Shown here piece after piece: positions 9,676-35,150 of a DNA stretch of 64,000 nt. The notes under the pieces were generated by a model that was not told the origin of the DNA, did not search any database, and saw only the letters and a list, made by a program, of their open reading frames with translations. The stretch is from Agreia sp. PsM10 (GTDB taxonomy: Bacteria; Actinomycetota; Actinomycetes; Actinomycetales; Microbacteriaceae), in contig NZ_JARUXC010000001.1 in the NCBI RefSeq assembly GCF_030433855.1, positions 124,001 through 188,000 of the forward strand. Direction: 5' to 3'. Position numbers and translations under genes: made by a program. How positions within the stretch are numbered: the first letter of the stretch is position 1; every line of letters starts with the position of its first letter.

Positions 9676-9830
9676 CAGGACTACCTTTCACAAATGCTGC
9701 GGCCCGCTCTGGGGCCATGCGTCCAGATTAGGACAGAATCCCGGGCGGGCTTGCCGTTCGGCCCGGCCGGCCACTCGCCGAGAGCGAACAGCGCGCACGA
9801 GGGATGCACGCGGGTGTCGGCGGCACACGT

Positions 9831-9836
9831 TAGCTT
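9831..9836 (+). promoter_or_regulatory. -10 box of adnA
   Basis: TAGCTT lies seven bases upstream of the GTG at 9844 and there is no ribosome binding site. This chooses the adnA start inside a frame that is open for more than 2 kb further upstream. Confidence 0.5.
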
Positions 9837-9843
9837 TGCTGTC

Positions 9844-12800
9844 GTGGAAATTGATCGGCCCGAGAGCCTCGACCCCGGCCAGTCGAGCGTGCTGGCTCTC
9901 GGCGATTCGGTCAGCTGCGCGGTCATCGGCGCGCCGGGCACGGGCAAGACCACCGCCCTGGTCGAGCTGCTGTGCGATCGCGTGCACAACCGCGGGTTCT
10001 CGCCCGACGAGGTCTTGGTGATCACACCGACGCGCGCGTCGGCGACCGCCCTTCGCGACCGGTTGGCGTTGCGCATGGGCGTTCCGTCGAACGGGCCTCT
10101 CGCCCGCACGGCGAACTCGATCGCGTTCCAGATCGTTCGAGGCGTGGCCGCCGTCCGCGGCCAGGAGCCGCCCGTTCTGCTCACCGGCGCCGAACAAGAC
10201 CAGATCATCTCCGAGTTGCTCGCAGGAGACATCGCCGACGCGACGGGCCCCGCGTGGCCCGACCACCTCTCAGAAGAGGTGCGGCGCCTCCGAGGTTTCC
10301 GCACCGAGTTGCGCGACCTCATGATGCGCGCGGTCGAGACGGGCACGGCGCCCGAGCGGCTGGCCGAGCTCGCTGTCGCGGCCGGGCGCCCGGAGTGGGC
10401 GGCGGCGGCGCGATTCATCGAGGGCTACGACCGCGTCAAGGGCAGCTATCGCGACCGCAGCTTCGACTCGGCCGAGCTTGCCCGCGAGGCCGCCGTGCTT
10501 CTTCGAGAGGGCGAATCGGCGCCCGACGAGCTCGAGGCCGCGGTCGGTTCGCTCGCCAGGCTCAGGCTCCTCGTGCTCGACGATGCGCAGGAGTCGACGC
10601 TGGCCACGCTCACCCTCGTCCGGGAGTTCGCGCGGCGCGGTGTCTCGGTGATCGCCTTCGGTGATCCTGACATCAGCACCGGCACGTTCCGTGGTGCCCA
10701 TCCCGACACTCTCGGCCGACTCGACGACTACCTCCGGGTTCCCACGCAGCCGCCCATCGTGCTCGATGTCGTGCATCGTCATGGCCCTGCCCTTCGTTCG
10801 CTGGTCGCCGACGTCACGGCGAGAATCGGCACGGCGCGGGCGGGCAGCCAGCGACGGGCCCTGGCCGCCGGCACTCCGGCCCACTCACGAGCAAGGCCGG
10901 GCGTGTCCACCGTGCTCGCCACGAGCCCCTCAAACGAGATCGGAGTCATCGCGCGCAGGCTCCGTGAGGCGCACGTGTTCGAGAACATCGCGTGGGACGA
11001 CATGGCCGTCATCGTTCGCAGTGGGGCGCAGATAGCGCCGCTCGAACGCGGCCTCGCCTCCTTCGACGTGCCGACCCGGGTCTCGCGTGCGCGCGTCGCG
11101 CTTCGCGACGAACCCGTCGTTCGGGCCTTCACGTCCATCCTCGAGGTCGCCCTCGGTCGTCGTGAGCTCATCGGCGACCTTGCGGAGACGCTGCTGCTGA
11201 GTCCTCTCGCCGGGGCCGACGCCGTGCTGCTCCGACGGCTGAAGCGGGCGCTGAGGCAGCTCGAGTTCTCCTCCGGCGGGCAGCGCACGGGCTCCGAGCT
11301 CCTCGTCGACGCCCTGCAGATGCCCCTTGTGCTCGCGCGCATCGAGCCGAGGGTCGCGCGCAAGGCACGCATCCTCGCGACGATGCTCGCAGAGACGCGC
11401 GAGGCGGTGGCGACAGAGGCGAGCGTCGAAGAGCTGCTGTGGCAGATCTGGCAGACAAGCGGTCTGGCCGAGCCCTGGCGTGCACAGTCGCTCGGCACGG
11501 GGCTCGTGGCCGACGAGGTCGGACACGACCTCGACGCCGTGGTCTCGCTGTTCTCCTCGGCGAAGAGATTCGTCGAGCGCTCGCCCGAGGCGCCCGCCAC
11601 CGTCTTCCTCGAGCAGCTTCTCGATGTCGATGTTCCCGAAGACACGCTGGCCAGGGGGGCGACAGGCCGTGCCGTCACCGTGACCTCTCCGGCCGGTGCG
11701 ATCGGCACGCAGTTCGTGCTCGTCGTCGTCGCCGGTGTGCAGGAGAACGTGTGGCCCAATCTGCGTATTCGAGGAACCCTGCTGGGTGCGGATGCCCTCG
11801 AGGGAGCCCGTCGCGGCGAGTCCTCTCCGGTGTCCGATCCGCGCACGGCTGTCCTCCACGACGAGTTGCGCATGTTCGCGCAGGCGGTCTCCCGGGCATC
11901 GACCGAGCTTCTCGTCACCGCGGTCGACGACGACGACCTGACCCCGTCGCCCCTGTTCCGGCTGCTGCCTGAGCCCGTTCCGGGAGCAGTGTCGCGAACC
12001 CCGCTGTCGTTGCGCGGACTCGTCGGCGTGCTCAGAAGAACAGTGTCGGCACGCGGCGATTCCCAGGCCGCGTCCGCCCTCGCGACGCTCGCACGCGAGG
12101 GTGTTCCCGGCGCGCACCCGGCCGAGTGGTACGGCCTGGCCGGAGCCAGTTCGTCGCAGCCCCTCGTCGATCTCACCGATGAGCTCGCTCGAGTGACGGT
12201 TTCTCCGTCGCGCATGGAGTCATTCGAGACGTGCCCGTTGAACTGGCTCATAGATCACCTCGGTGGCGGATCGTCGAACACGTCCTCCCAGGTCGGCACC
12301 CTGATCCACGAGGCCATGGAGACCACGACGACCTCGCCCGACCTCGACAGCAGCGAAGAATCGCTGATAGAGCTGGTCGAGTCACGCTGGAGCGAGTTGT
12401 ACTTCGAATCGTCCTGGCTCAGCGAGATCAAACGCAGGGAGGCGAGACAGCTCGTCGCCCGACTCTCGAGTTACCTCTCCGACTTCGACCGCAGCAGGGG
12501 CGCCCTCCTCGGCGCCGAGTCGGGCTTCGAGCTCGAGGTCGACCGTGCGCTTCTGCGGGGAACGATCGACCGCGTCGAGCTCTATCCCGACGGCTCGGTC
12601 GTCATCGTCGATCTGAAGACGGGCAAACGGGCGTACACGGCCGGCGAGATCGGTGAGAACGCGCAGTTGGGGGCCTATCAGCTCGCCTTCGATGCGGGGC
12701 TGATCGCAGGCGTTCCCGACGATTCGACTCCCGGGGGTGCCCGTCTGCTGATCGTCTCCAAGACGAGCAGGGGCAAGAACTACGTCGATCACACTCAGGC

Positions 12801-26742: not shown

Positions 26743-27086
26743 TGTCTACATCTGCTGACTCGACGTGACAGTCAGGAAGACAGTCTTCGGGCACTCGCAG
26801 GCGATCGGTTCCGGCTGGGCTGATGTTCAGTCGAGTAAACAACGCGGGCGCGGTTTCCTCTCCAGTGCGTGCGCCGCCGTGGCCGTGCAGCAGCTCTCAC
26901 CTCTCAGCTGGCGAGCATGTTGATGCCATGGACGAGCCGAGACGGAACCTCGCAGGCGCAATGTCCGGCGCCGCCCGCGTGACCGACTCGATGCTCGTGA
27001 CCTTTCGAGGCCACGCGTCATTGCAATACGGACTGTGCTGGATTGCGCTAGCATCGGGTCTGTTGGGGGCAACTCAGAAGGAAACC
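26743..27086. other. 344-bp region without a supported gene
   Basis: No coding region is supported here. The frame of the downstream surface protein is open from 26823, but codons before 27087 encode no signal peptide and look noncoding. A short direct repeat GACAGTC occurs twice near 26768 and 26779. The lower part near 27049 (TAGCAT) could hold the -10 box of the surface-protein gene. No integrase, attachment-site duplicate or insertion sequence was seen. Confidence 0.5.
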
Positions 27087-27791
27087 ATGTCTTCGTTCAG
27101 TACCGTCCGACGACTTCTCGTTGGAACAGCGCTCACAACAGCCGCCATCGTCGGCGTAACTGCCGCACCAGCTCTGGCACTTCACGCAACCGATCCCATC
27201 GACGGCGAAACGGTCACGCTAGCAACAACGAGCTACGACGCCGGCTCGTGGGGAGACGGCTTCGGTTTCACCGTCGAGGATGTCAACTTCGGGGAGAACG
27301 GGCTGCCGAATCACATCTTCGTTTACGAGATCGGCACCATGGACTTGGCCACCGGCGCGTACGGGCACGTCGAAGGAATGCCCGCCCATACGGTGCTGCG
27401 ACAGGACAATTCGACGTTTTCCGTTCCTCCCTACACGCCGGAGGTGATGAACCACGTCCTCCCCGAGGGCCAGACTTGGGCACTCATCTACGGGTATTTC
27501 CCATCGTTCAGTCCGTACGGTGCTTACTACTCGGCAGTACCGTTCGACGTTGTCGGAGATCTCGCTTCTCCGACCGACCCACCCACTGAGTCACCATCGA
27601 TCCCGGCCGCTGCGGACCACAGCGACGCTGTCGACGAGGTACCCGTACCTGCAGAGCCTGAATCCGCAGTGAAGCCGCAACTGGCGGAAACAGGCACCGA
27701 CCCGGTCGCCCCAGTGGTTCTAGGCGGCATGACCCTGGTGCTCGGTGTCATCGTGCTGACGGCTCGCCGTCGCGTCCGCTCGTCCCGGTAG
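27087..27791 (+). CDS. Sortase-anchored surface protein (LAETG)
   Basis: This 234-residue secreted protein has a signal peptide (about residues 1-32, ending APALALHA), an extracellular beta-rich domain of about 130 residues, a Pro/Ser/Glu linker, and a C-terminal sorting signal: LAETG near 198, a hydrophobic segment (VVLGGMTLVLGVIVLTA) and the basic tail RRRVRSSR. LAxTG is the motif used by class E sortases in high-GC Gram-positives; no sortase gene is in the window. The ATG has AGAAGGAAACC upstream. Base composition is less GC-rich than the housekeeping genes to the left. The domain YDAGSWGDGFGFTVEDVNFG was not assigned to a family. Confidence 0.85.
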   Translation: MSSFSTVRRLLVGTALTTAAIVGVTAAPALALHATDPIDGETVTLATTSYDAGSWGDGFGFTVEDVNFGENGLPNHIFVYEIGTMDLATGAYGHVEGMPAHTVLRQDNSTFSVPPYTPEVMNHVLPEGQTWALIYGYFPSFSPYGAYYSAVPFDVVGDLASPTDPPTESPSIPAAADHSDAVDEVPVPAEPESAVKPQLAETGTDPVAPVVLGGMTLVLGVIVLTARRRVRSSR

Positions 27792-31621: not shown

Positions 31622-31902
31622 GCGTCGACCTTCTGCAGCGTCGCCCACAGGCCGAATTCGTGCATGGCCTCGACGTGCCGCTCCATCTCCTCGCGAGTTC
31701 CCGTGGCCACGACCGCACGCCCCTCCGTGTGCACCTGCATCATCCGACGCTCGGCCTCGGGCTTCGAGAACCCGAAGTAGCTGCGGAACACGTACGACAC
31801 GTACGACATGAGGTTCACCGGGTCGTTCCACACCAGGGTGATCCACGGAGAGCCGAGCTGCAGCTGCTCATCGAGTTCGGCCTGGTCGAGGGTCTGTGCC
31901 AC
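31618..31902 (-). CDS. clpS: ClpS adaptor for ATP-dependent Clp protease
   Basis: This 94-residue adaptor delivers N-end-rule substrates to ClpC/ClpA-ClpP. The core motif WNDPVNLMSYVSYVF carries the conserved Asn-Asp and the binding-pocket face, followed by MMQVHTEGRAVVATGTREEMERHVEAMHEFGL. The GTG at 31902 starts two bases after the stop of the coiled-coil gene and has no ribosome binding site, so it depends on coupling to that gene. Its stop overlaps the DUF2017 start. Family assignment is firm. Confidence 0.93.
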   Translation of the reverse strand: MAQTLDQAELDEQLQLGSPWITLVWNDPVNLMSYVSYVFRSYFGFSKPEAERRMMQVHTEGRAVVATGTREEMERHVEAMHEFGLWATLQKVDA

Positions 31903-31904
31903 GA

Positions 31905-33632
31905 CTACGACGCGTCGACGGTCTCGTCCGACTCGATGTCGTCGAGGGCGTTGAGCACGCGTACGGCAGCGTCGTTCGCACCGATCGCGTATTCGTTGGT
32001 CTCGGTCTCGTCGACCAGTTCTTCGGTCGCGATCTGCTCGATGCGGCTGATCTTCTGCTCGAGGGCCGAGGTGGTCGACTGCACGAACTGAACCAGCCGC
32101 TGCTCGGGAGCGTTGTCCTCTGTCCAGTCGCCGACGACGTCGGCGTCGGCGAGAGCGGCCACGGTGAGCCGGAGCCGGTTCTCCCACTCGCCGCGCTGGG
32201 CGGTGACGCCGTCGAGTTCCTCGATGGCGGCGTCGCGCTGGGCGTCGCTGCGGTCGCGTTCTTCGCGCAGCGCCGCGATCTGCGCCCGGCTGGCCTCGAG
32301 TTCGGATGCCGCCTGCTCGGCTCGAGCGATGGCCGCGGCCAGATCGTCGTGAACGTCGGGCAGACCGCTGTCGGCGTGTGCCGAGCCCGCCTGCAGCTGA
32401 GCAGCCAGCGCCTCCTTCTCGGAGATCAGCTCGGTGGTCTGGCGCTCGTGACTGGCCGCGAGTTCGGCCACCTGTGCGTCGTGCGCCGCCTTCAGCTCGT
32501 CGATCTGCTGCTGGTGGGCCTCGTCGATCGCGCGGAGCTGCGTGTCGTGCTCCGCGGCCAGCGCGGTGACATCGGTCGTGCGGGTTCCCTCGAGCTCGGC
32601 CACCTGGGATTCGAGTCGCGCGGTGAGTTCGGCGACCTGCGCGTCGCGCTGGGCGCGGAGCTCGGCGAGTTCTGCGGTGAGCGAAGCGACCTCGGTCTCG
32701 CGCTGGGCGTGCAGGCCGGCGATCGTCGCGTCTCGCTCGCTGCGCAGGGCAGCGACCTCGTTCTCGCGCTGGCTCGTGAGAGCGGCGACCTCGGCGGCGA
32801 GTCGAGAGTTCAGCTCGGCGACCTCGGAGTCGCGCTGCTGCTGCAACGCGGCGAGATCGGCGTCGCGCTGAGTCGACAGCGAGACGAGCTCGTTCTCGCG
32901 CTGCTGGTGCAGGGCCGCGACGTGCGCGTCGCGCTCGTTCGAAAGGGCGGCCAGCTCGGCCTCGCGCTGCTGGTGGGCGGCGCTGACGTCTGCCTCGCGC
33001 TGGGCGGTGAGTGCGGCGACCTCGGCAGCCAGTCGAGTCGACAGCTCGCCGACCTCGAACTCGCGCTGCTGGTGCAGCCCCGCGACCTCGGCCTCGCGTT
33101 GCGCCGTGAGAGACGCCACCTGGTTCTGGAGCTCGGCACGCAGTCTGTCGACCTCGGCCTCGGCGGCCTCGGCCCGTGCGGTCTGGTCGATGAGCTGCTG
33201 CTGCAGATCGGCTGCGTGCGCCTGCGACTCGGCCAGCTGCGCCGACACGTCTGTCAGGTGGGCTTCGGCGTTGATCCTCGCCTCGTCGCGGGCCTGCCGG
33301 TCTTCGATGACGCTGTCGAGGTGCAGACGGATGATCTCGAGAGGGTCTTCGGTGGTCTCGAGGTTGACGATCGGTTCGAGCTCGGGCTGCACATAGGCCG
33401 GCTTGGCCGTGGGGTCGATGAGGTGGTGGCTGAAGAGCTCGTCGGTGACAGGACGGTAGCGCGCCTGGAAGTCCTCGGATCCCACCTTGACTGCAGCATC
33501 GATGAGCCTGATGGCGAAGCGGTCACGCCCCGAGAGCACCAGGGGCGAGTCGGTCTGCGCCGGCGCGGGCGCGCGGTTCGACTCGTTCTGGGGCGGGTTC
33601 TCGGGTTCGGGGGAGAGGGCGTCGAAAGTCAT
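31905..33632 (-). CDS. Hendecad-repeat coiled-coil protein
   Basis: This 575-residue protein has a short Pro-rich N-terminus, a conserved-looking globular part (about 35-110, GRDRFAIRLIDAAVKVGSED), and a long rod. From about residue 178 to 415 the rod is a nearly unbroken series of 11-residue units of the form QREAEVAxLxx, interrupted by one 7-residue unit at 321-327. A 77-residue super-repeat is visible: RLAAEVAALT begins at both 200 and 277. The C-terminus (about 430-575) is helical and acidic. No membrane segment is present. The ATG has AAGGAG upstream. It is coupled to clpS. A cytoskeletal or scaffold role like that of other actinobacterial coiled-coil proteins is inferred. Confidence 0.85.
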   Translation of the reverse strand: MTFDALSPEPENPPQNESNRAPAPAQTDSPLVLSGRDRFAIRLIDAAVKVGSEDFQARYRPVTDELFSHHLIDPTAKPAYVQPELEPIVNLETTEDPLEIIRLHLDSVIEDRQARDEARINAEAHLTDVSAQLAESQAHAADLQQQLIDQTARAEAAEAEVDRLRAELQNQVASLTAQREAEVAGLHQQREFEVGELSTRLAAEVAALTAQREADVSAAHQQREAELAALSNERDAHVAALHQQRENELVSLSTQRDADLAALQQQRDSEVAELNSRLAAEVAALTSQRENEVAALRSERDATIAGLHAQRETEVASLTAELAELRAQRDAQVAELTARLESQVAELEGTRTTDVTALAAEHDTQLRAIDEAHQQQIDELKAAHDAQVAELAASHERQTTELISEKEALAAQLQAGSAHADSGLPDVHDDLAAAIARAEQAASELEASRAQIAALREERDRSDAQRDAAIEELDGVTAQRGEWENRLRLTVAALADADVVGDWTEDNAPEQRLVQFVQSTTSALEQKISRIEQIATEELVDETETNEYAIGANDAAVRVLNALDDIESDETVDAS

Positions 33633-33699
33633 TGAACTCCTTCGGTGTCCGGGTCGAGCGGAAACCGTCGCGGGGTCGGGCAGGCCGTTTTTCAGGATA

Positions 33700-33722: not shown

Positions 33723-35150
33723 TCAGGAATCGAAACCCAGCCCCACGGCATCCAGAGCCTTGAGGATGCCGTTTCGGCGCCCACCATGGTGATCGGCCCG
33801 GTCGAGCGACCATCTCGTCGTCTGGATTCCCAGGGAGGCCACCGGCTCCGGCGGAAACGGGAGTGGACGGCGGCGGACCATCTCGAGACTCGTGCGCTCC
33901 GTGACCTCGCCGTCGAGCAGATCGAGCATCACGTTCGCCGCGAAGTGCGTGGCCGCGACGCCGAGGCCGGTATAGCCCGCCGCATACGCCACGCGACCCT
34001 GCCGTGCCGCGCCGTAGAACGCGCAGAACCGGGTGCAGGTGTCGATCGCGCCAGCCCACCGATGCGAGAAGCGCAGGCCCTCGAGCTGGGGAAAGGTCGT
34101 GAAGAAGTGCTCCGCAAGTCGGCGGAAGGTCTCGGGACGGTCCTCGTAGGAGGGGCGGACCCGAGCTCCGTAGTGATAGATCGCGTCGTAGCCGCCGAAC
34201 AGGATGCGGTTGTCGTGGGAGAGCCGGTAGTAGTGGAACTGGTTGGCGCCATCACCCAACCCCTGCCGGTTCGCCCAGCCGATCGAGCGGAGCTGCTCGT
34301 CGCTCAGCGGCTCGGTCATGAGCACGTAGTCGTAGACGGGCACCGTCGCGAGCCGGTTGCGACGGAGAAGCGATGGGAACACGTTCGTTCCGAGGGCGAC
34401 CCGACGGGCGGTGACCCGGGCGTTGTCGGTGACGACGGTCACGGGCGCGGTGGGGGAGCCGCTGCTCGAGGAGATGGACCGCACGGGAGTGTTCTCGAAG
34501 ATCTCCACGCCGAGCTCCTCGGCCACCCGCGCGAGTTCGGCGGCCAGTCGGGCGGGGTGCACCAGGGCGGAGGTGCGCTTCTCCCACAGGGCGGCGAGGT
34601 AGGTGGGGGAGTCGACCTGACGCCGCACGGCATCGGTGTCGAGAAACACCGTGTGCTCGTCGGTGGTCGCCGCGCGAAGGGCATCGACCTGGTAGGGCTC
34701 GACGGCGAGCGAGAGGGCCCCGTTGCGCTCGAAGTCGCACTCGAGTGCATACTCGTCGACCGCGCGTTCGATCTCGTCGAGATTCTCGAGGCCGAGCTCG
34801 ATCAGGCGATCGATCTCGGAGGGAAAGCGACTGCGTCCGTTGTCGTCGCCGTGCGTGAGGCTCGCCTCGACGAAGCCTCCGTTGCGCCCGGATGCCGCCC
34901 AGCCGACCGTCTTGGCCTCGAGAAGCACCACCCGCGCATCCGGATGGCGGCGCTTGGCGAGGACGGCGGTCCACAGGCCGCTGTAGCCTCCTCCGACGAT
35001 AGCGAGGTCGGCGCTGACAGGCGCGTCGAGGCGGTGCCTGCGCGGCTGGGTGATGTCGTCGATCCAGAACGGACGCTGCACGGCTGCGCTCAGTGCGTGC
35101 TCCACGATGCGTGCCGACGGTCGGGAGCGTTCGAATACGGTCTGCGCCAT
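33723..35150 (-). CDS. FAD-dependent amine oxidoreductase (DAO family)
   Basis: This 475-residue flavoenzyme of the D-amino-acid-oxidase superfamily has a Rossmann FAD site ADLAIVGGGYSGLWTAVLA (near 48-66) and a following LLEAKTVGWAASGRNGGF. The C-terminal FAD region has YAAGYTGLGVAATHFA. The arrangement, including an N-terminal extension of about 45 residues before the dinucleotide fold, is that of gamma-glutamylputrescine oxidase-like proteins. Substrate is uncertain; no puu genes are nearby. The gene lies 35 bp from the end of the SorC-type regulator gene on the same strand. A hairpin follows its stop. Confidence 0.87.
   Translation of the reverse strand: MAQTVFERSRPSARIVEHALSAAVQRPFWIDDITQPRRHRLDAPVSADLAIVGGGYSGLWTAVLAKRRHPDARVVLLEAKTVGWAASGRNGGFVEASLTHGDDNGRSRFPSEIDRLIELGLENLDEIERAVDEYALECDFERNGALSLAVEPYQVDALRAATTDEHTVFLDTDAVRRQVDSPTYLAALWEKRTSALVHPARLAAELARVAEELGVEIFENTPVRSISSSSGSPTAPVTVVTDNARVTARRVALGTNVFPSLLRRNRLATVPVYDYVLMTEPLSDEQLRSIGWANRQGLGDGANQFHYYRLSHDNRILFGGYDAIYHYGARVRPSYEDRPETFRRLAEHFFTTFPQLEGLRFSHRWAGAIDTCTRFCAFYGAARQGRVAYAAGYTGLGVAATHFAANVMLDLLDGEVTERTSLEMVRRRPLPFPPEPVASLGIQTTRWSLDRADHHGGRRNGILKALDAVGLGFDS

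Follow-up and report, generated by a model that had tools for sequence, protein, structure and literature searches.

A hendecad coiled-coil protein family with an axial Arg/His position and two conserved end modules in Agreia and three further genera

A small orphan protein family that belongs to a known structural type and is unusual in its axial residue was identified from one gene of Agreia sp. PsM10, and it has been found so far in four genera of one bacterial family, the Microbacteriaceae. The gene was located at 31905..33632 on the reverse strand of the analysed stretch of 64,000 nucleotides (the window) and encoded, from an ATG start, a long hendecad coiled-coil protein of 575 amino acids plus stop. 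As read from the sequences, a hendecad register conserved among relatives, a conserved module at either end, and a Val/Leu seam with a central Arg/His and an alanine face opposite to it were shown. The new feature was the axial position, which was Arg, His or Lys in 51-79% of units, depending on the genus.

The rod gene was single-copy in the window's genome, and the sequence GAAGGAG at 33637-33643 lay directly 5' of its ATG and was present in all six regions compared (the window and five relatives). When six Agreia relatives were compared with the window, dN/dS of the hendecad part was 0.10-0.14 in five comparisons and 0.34 in the sixth (locus L040), and across all segments of the gene it was 0.03-0.19 for five relatives and 0.16-0.34 for L040. 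These values supported the coding status of the gene, and the hendecad rod evolves under purifying selection. A 579-aa ORF on the forward strand (31896-33635) ran antisense across the entire rod gene; it was open in the window and in L028, and the other five of the seven Agreia sequences carried 2-5 stops in this frame.

Hendecad periodicity and conservation of register

The preliminary description had proposed 21 eleven-residue units and one seven-residue unit in residues 178-415, and a segmentation in which any gap was allowed returned exactly this layout, namely 13 hendecads (residues 178-320, 32673..33101, reverse strand as for all segments below, consensus QREAEVAALxx), one heptad (residues 321-327, 32652..32672) and 8 hendecads (residues 328-415, 32388..32651). 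In this segmentation the first hendecad run started at residue 156, and a lone unit was found at 465-475. The periodicity of ILMVFWY over 178-415 peaked at 3.66 with a power of 34.4, compared with 31.3 at 11/3 and 0.0 at 3.5, and the top power of 2000 composition shuffles over periods 3.3-4.0 was 10.7. Identity at lag 11 was 0.352 in the rod, and the maximum among 10000 shuffles was 0.220. The 11/3 periodicity expected earlier was thereby confirmed, the rod not being built mainly of heptads. Since 3.63 is given as the period of an undistorted helix in PMC9858780, the value of 3.66 suggested a nearly straight or slightly right-handed coil. With Ala left out of the hydrophobic set, on which the hendecad assignment of the rod depends, the hydrophobic period near 11/3 and the a/d/h core of a hendecad coiled coil were found, but position h was Arg/His. 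When Ala was counted as hydrophobic, the 11/3 power over 178-415 fell to 0.5, because Ala occupies the opposite helix face.

A 77-residue super-repeat had also been described, and its signal was weak. Within the unbroken run of residues 178-320, lag 77 gave the best identity (35/66, 0.53) and lag 22 was a close second (59/121, 0.49). Over 178-415 it was unremarkable, the identity at lag 77 (0.342) being similar to the values for lags 33-66 (0.33-0.34) and lower than that at lag 22 (0.398). The arrays detected in the rod gene at the DNA level had periods of 33 and 66 bp.

The rod was preceded by a lead-in of heptad period (residues 127-177, 33102..33254), which became hendecads at about residue 156, and was followed by a second predicted helix, also of heptad period (residues 428-496, 32145..32351), with a peak of 3.49 over 420-500. 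The plan of heptad lead-in and hendecad rod was found in 27 of the 28 proteins scanned; the first 55-residue coil window of these 27 had a period of 3.49-3.55, rising afterwards to 3.6-3.7, and the 28th protein, L041, had no clear period peak in that window.

The register was kept through changes in length. Among seven of the eight Agreia rods (21 pairs, L041 left out), 36 of 42 gap events were multiples of 11; L040 took part in each of the remaining six (21 or 10 residues), which were C-terminal to the main hendecad runs. A parse of 28 proteins that ignored positions 2 and 5 gave 47 short gaps between hendecad runs, 35 of them exactly 7 residues long, and the gap between the two main runs was 7 residues in all eight Agreia proteins. 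These gap counts are non-independent, as the proteins share ancestry. Rod length ranged from 201 to 576 residues among the relatives, with boundaries set by script. Lengths in multiples of 11 could also arise where 33-bp repeats slip, even if register is not selected.

Axial Arg/His ladder and alanine face

With the contact direction set by hydrophobic phase alone, the residue lying within 5 degrees of it was Arg in 11 of 13 units of residues 178-320, and the same position in residues 328-415 was His, Arg or Lys in 7 of 8 units (His 4, Arg 2, Lys 1, Leu 1). In a parse blind to the axial position, the axial proportion of R/H/K was 79% in Agreia (g1, 191 units), 65% in genus g8 (122 units), 51% in g12 (236 units) and 61% in g27 (18 units), and 6-9% at non-axial positions. 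The corresponding axial proportion was 0-9% in four comparison coils, which carried mostly Ala or aliphatic/aromatic residues there; these were four of eight coils scanned from the DivIVA-family search, chosen for hendecad-like windows, and one of them (L119) scores under the DivIVA cut-off. With Ala left out of the phase, axial R/H/K was 0.31-0.79 and axial Ala 0.00-0.04 in eight rod-family members; with Ala at half weight, only three of the eight retained any hendecad window, one or two each. The ladder was less pure in g12: the longest run of L085 had axial Leu in 6/10 and Arg in 4/10, and in L035 axial Leu (38) exceeded His (24) among 80 axial residues.

The alanines of the first run were on the other side of the helix, 28 of the 31 in residues 178-320 being found on the opposite face. 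As counting Ala as hydrophobic nearly abolished the 11/3 signal, both the Val/Leu face and the alanine face were regarded as candidate pairing faces. PMC9858780 explains why a hendecad dimer is expected to have a small residue, often Ala, at one of its core positions, and the rod family has Arg/His at that place. Burying Arg in a coil core is described as costly in PMC8749076, so pairing by the Val/Leu seam may be weak; the same paper holds that polar core residues favour two strands. It also describes FtsLB of E. coli, which resembles the rod family in having core arginines in a coiled coil, regarded there as a detuned element. FtsLB differs in that its heptad coil is short, anchored in the membrane and part of the divisome, and no sequence relation is claimed. 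A four-unit structure would reveal how an 11/3 coil accommodates axial Arg/His, which bears on the design rules of coiled coils.

There was a hint of coupling between positions 2 and 5, Arg occurring with Glu/Asp and His with Gln. The coupling was strong in the pooled distinct units (72/8 versus 67/63) and in Agreia (52/6 versus 6/23), and neither g8 (p 0.53) nor g12 (p 0.07) reached significance by itself. It is kept at the level of a hint because the units are copies of one another.

These features might be combined in a new kind of two-seam bacterial filament protein, an arrangement that we consider unlikely. Its helix would have a Val/Leu seam with axial Arg/His every 11 residues (about 1.6 nm) and an opposite alanine seam, one of them serving for pairing of the chains and the other for stacking. 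The ladder would make assembly dependent on counter-ions, on pH (in the His forms) or on a bound polyanion.

End modules, predicted structure and distribution

The conserved N-terminal module (residues 33-126, 33255..33536) consisted of two short helices, a DPTAKPAY stretch and the helix start DPLEIIR...DRxxRDxAR, and followed a variable Pro/Glu/Ser-rich tail (residues 1-32, 33537..33632) that was poorly alignable across genera and modelled with pLDDT <50. A second conserved module was found at the C-terminus (residues 509-568, 31929..32108), with a helix predicted over 509-568 and the motif ATEELVDETETNEYAIGANDAAVRVLNAL; this module, the Arg/His ladder and the alanine face are additional to the preliminary description. 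In alignments of 15 sequences, 26 of 103 columns of the N module and 13 of 56 columns of the C module were invariant. Some of these columns vary among 28 members; RDR (R36, D37, R38) and DRxxRDxAR (111-119) of the N module do not, being present in 28/28 parsed members, as was the C-module motif. Both end modules were present in all 29 carriers, 28 of them parsed and one, L078 (G347), read separately and left out of the 28-protein counts of rods, motifs and axial residues. Ten g8 relatives (L032-L034, L074-L080) had an extra tail beyond the C module, eight ending in RAS and two in SRS.

The full-length single-chain model, built with five sequences (mean pLDDT 72.8, pTM 0.23), predicted a single helix over residues 99-410, followed by helices 428-496 and 509-568, with block-mean pLDDT of 93-96 over residues 201-340. 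In the model of the N module, helices were placed at 35-50 and 53-68, with another from 97-99 onward, at low to moderate confidence. The N-terminal part had been called globular; it was only weakly predicted as such, with two short helices and an extended stretch of pLDDT <50. The fold search with this poor model (mean pLDDT 68.4) gave three matches at E up to 10, the best at 6.2, an outcome of little weight. No membrane-like segment was found in the rod protein, in which the highest Kyte-Doolittle mean over 19 residues was 0.74.

The suggestion that the N-terminal part is conserved in other Microbacteriaceae held, as the N-module profile matched in 29 of the 398 family genomes, spread over 4 of 85 genera, with one match per genome (8 genomes of Agreia, all eight examined, 10 of g8, 10 of g12 and 1 of g27). 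The number of first-look candidates scored per genome was capped at 12 or 16 when the family, class and phylum were searched. In the class and phylum samples (296 genomes each), the N module matched the window and gave one short weak match each, and the C module matched only the window's genome in the 296-genome class sample; these samples evidently contained no further carrier genome. Two partial matches, in G482 (34 positions, E 0.006) and G738 (37 positions, E 0.0095), were attributed to chance. A single-sequence match in G111 (genus g32, E 9.8e-4) was also rejected, since no g32 genome was among the 29 profile matches and its frame was unlike the family.

No named family had been recognised in the protein, and searches of Pfam, NCBIfam, PHROGs, PADLOC and PDB sequences likewise revealed none, the last giving no match to the rod protein at E up to 0.1. 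Full-protein Pfam matches were on the coil and were set aside (best Sds3, E 0.0003, 21.3 bits versus a cut-off of 25.4), as were NCBIfam matches far below their cut-offs. The Pfam matches of the C module were weak (15.1 and 13.3 bits for member 1 versus cut-offs of 25; best member E-value 0.03), and the PHROGs/PADLOC search gave one weak match to it (E 0.073). A phage, plasmid or defence origin was rejected, because viral contigs, plasmids and phages yielded no rod-family relative, and the full-protein PHROGs/PADLOC matches were weak and on the coil (E 0.0085-0.03). In the literature, the search found no paper on Agreia coiled-coil proteins, nor one on the rod family among titles and abstract openings on hendecads and 11-residue repeats, a scope outside which a 2023 hendecad survey fell. 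That survey, by Martinez-Goikoetxea and Lupas, reportedly covers hendecad families.

Relation to known coiled coils and possible role

In PMC9858780, hendecads are called largely unexplored, and the actinobacterial hendecad rods treated there, FilP and Scy of Streptomyces, belong to the DivIVA group. Like FilP/Scy, the rod family is actinobacterial, and in both a small N-terminal part and a short heptad coil precede long hendecad rods (same source). Such likeness would suit a DivIVA/FilP/Scy-type protein that is specific to this lineage and in which divergence has made the N-terminal motif unrecognisable. This derivation appears improbable: the DivIVA-type motif GY[DN]xx[QE]V[DN] occurred in 0/28 rod-family members, and the rod-family profile aligned with an hhalign probability of 0.2% to 12 DivIVA-type N-domains (12 of 22 search loci, those with the motif in the frame read). 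PF05103 was not among the Pfam matches of the rod protein at E up to 1, and axial R/H/K was 0.31-0.79 in eight members versus 0.00-0.09 in the four comparison coils. Membership of DivIVA/FilP was rejected by the absence of the motif and the profile mismatch, and by the tests made the family stands outside the DivIVA group. It further differs in its own C-terminal module and in its axial Arg/His, the cores of FilP/Scy being reported with alanine in PMC9858780. The alanine-rich hendecad core of FilP/Scy was not found, Ala being on the opposite face, which holds only if that face is not the core. The window's genome contained one DivIVA above the Pfam cut-off (L089, contig C42), with the motif GYDQDEVDDF, and three weaker matches below it.

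NadA3 of Neisseria also mixes 11-residue coiled-coil units with heptads, and one of its undecads has a polar layer (Asn, Lys) turned to the surface, as described in PMC6191539; it is a surface trimer with two isolated undecads, compared with 21 units in residues 178-415 of the rod protein. The rod protein did not qualify as an SMC protein, its match to the SMC family lying on the coil with 13.4 bits versus a cut-off of 567.35.

Repeats of 11 residues rich in Ala, Glu and Gln would be consistent with a protein that acts in desiccation or stress in the manner of LEA group 3, where such repeats stay unfolded until drying. LEA proteins are disordered protectants, and the regular Val/Leu seam, the exact 7-residue interruptions and the two conserved end modules are unlike such a protein. 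In addition, no LEA Pfam match, including the LEA_4-type 11-mer profile, was obtained with the rod protein at E up to 1, and we regard this explanation as highly improbable.

A nucleic-acid-associated coil like plasmid KfrA, of which the charged N module would bind DNA or RNA and the rod multimerise along it, is unlikely. The invariant charged residues of the N module (R36, D37, R38 and DRxxRDxAR) would agree with it, as would a gene of S4-like, RNA-binding type (by eye) that adjoins the rod gene in six loci of g8 and one of g12. However, this gene was downstream in g8, upstream in g12 and not near the five Agreia loci compared, the net charge was negative in every segment counted of the rod protein, and there was no plasmid match. 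No Pfam match to the KfrA N-terminal DNA-binding domain was found at E up to 1 with the whole protein or 15 N modules, nor one to another DNA-binding family.

By analogy with FilP, the most likely reading, held tentatively, is that of a cytoplasmic rod self-associating into a FilP-like scaffold or filament, with its end modules docking partners. The plan of FilP is comparable: its coiled-coil rod has a head and a tail, the molecules measure 37 nm and filaments are formed (PMC6599971), and dimers are reported for FilP/Scy (PMC9858780 and PMC6599971). The 3.66 period, the plan shared by 27 of 28 proteins, both end modules in all carriers, the kept register, the low dN/dS of the rod, the predicted continuous helix, the axial Arg/His with its opposite alanine face and the lack of a membrane-like segment also speak for this reading. 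The rod protein would form a helix of about 310 residues with one conserved module per end. At a helix rise of 0.1485 nm per residue, its length would be about 46 nm. Two or more chains would pair along one seam, where the axial Arg/His probably escapes burial by bending out towards flanking Glu/Gln. Lateral packing by the other face would then bundle the dimers or build them into filaments. With end modules that would bind partners or link successive rods, the protein might serve as a scaffold or spacer of intermediate-filament type, comparable to FilP in Streptomyces. Rod length may be free to drift, since register alone would matter. The absence of the gene from most genera of its family argues that it is not a general cytoskeletal part, and its neighbours, which differ between genera, gave no pointer to division or cytoskeleton.

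A discrete molecular tether is nearly as likely, though it too falls well short of an even chance. A dimer or trimer, forming no filament, would hold two partners about 50 nm apart via the N and C modules. The end modules were far better conserved than rod length, which was variable with register kept, and one match per genome was found in 29/29 carriers, all in agreement with a tether. It would be unusual for a strict ruler to span 201 to 576 residues from one relative to another, and no neighbour gene was common to all four genera in the 25 loci compared.

The gene neighbourhoods showed no common theme across the loci compared. In Agreia, glycerol genes and a SorC-like regulator were recognised by eye on one side of the rod gene and ClpS on the other, and the neighbours in g8 and g12 were different. 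Between the SorC-like regulator and the rod gene, the window contained a FAD-dependent oxidoreductase-like gene (by eye; 33723-35150, reverse strand), which was also present in L028 and was found by tblastn in 0/6 other Agreia loci. In L029, an opposite-strand 421-aa ORF and an 88-aa ORF (9820-11375) were located between the rod gene and ClpS, which are adjacent in the window. Additionally, the window encoded at 26823-27791 on the forward strand a protein ending in LAETG, a hydrophobic stretch and arginines, which by eye looks like a sortase-anchored surface protein.
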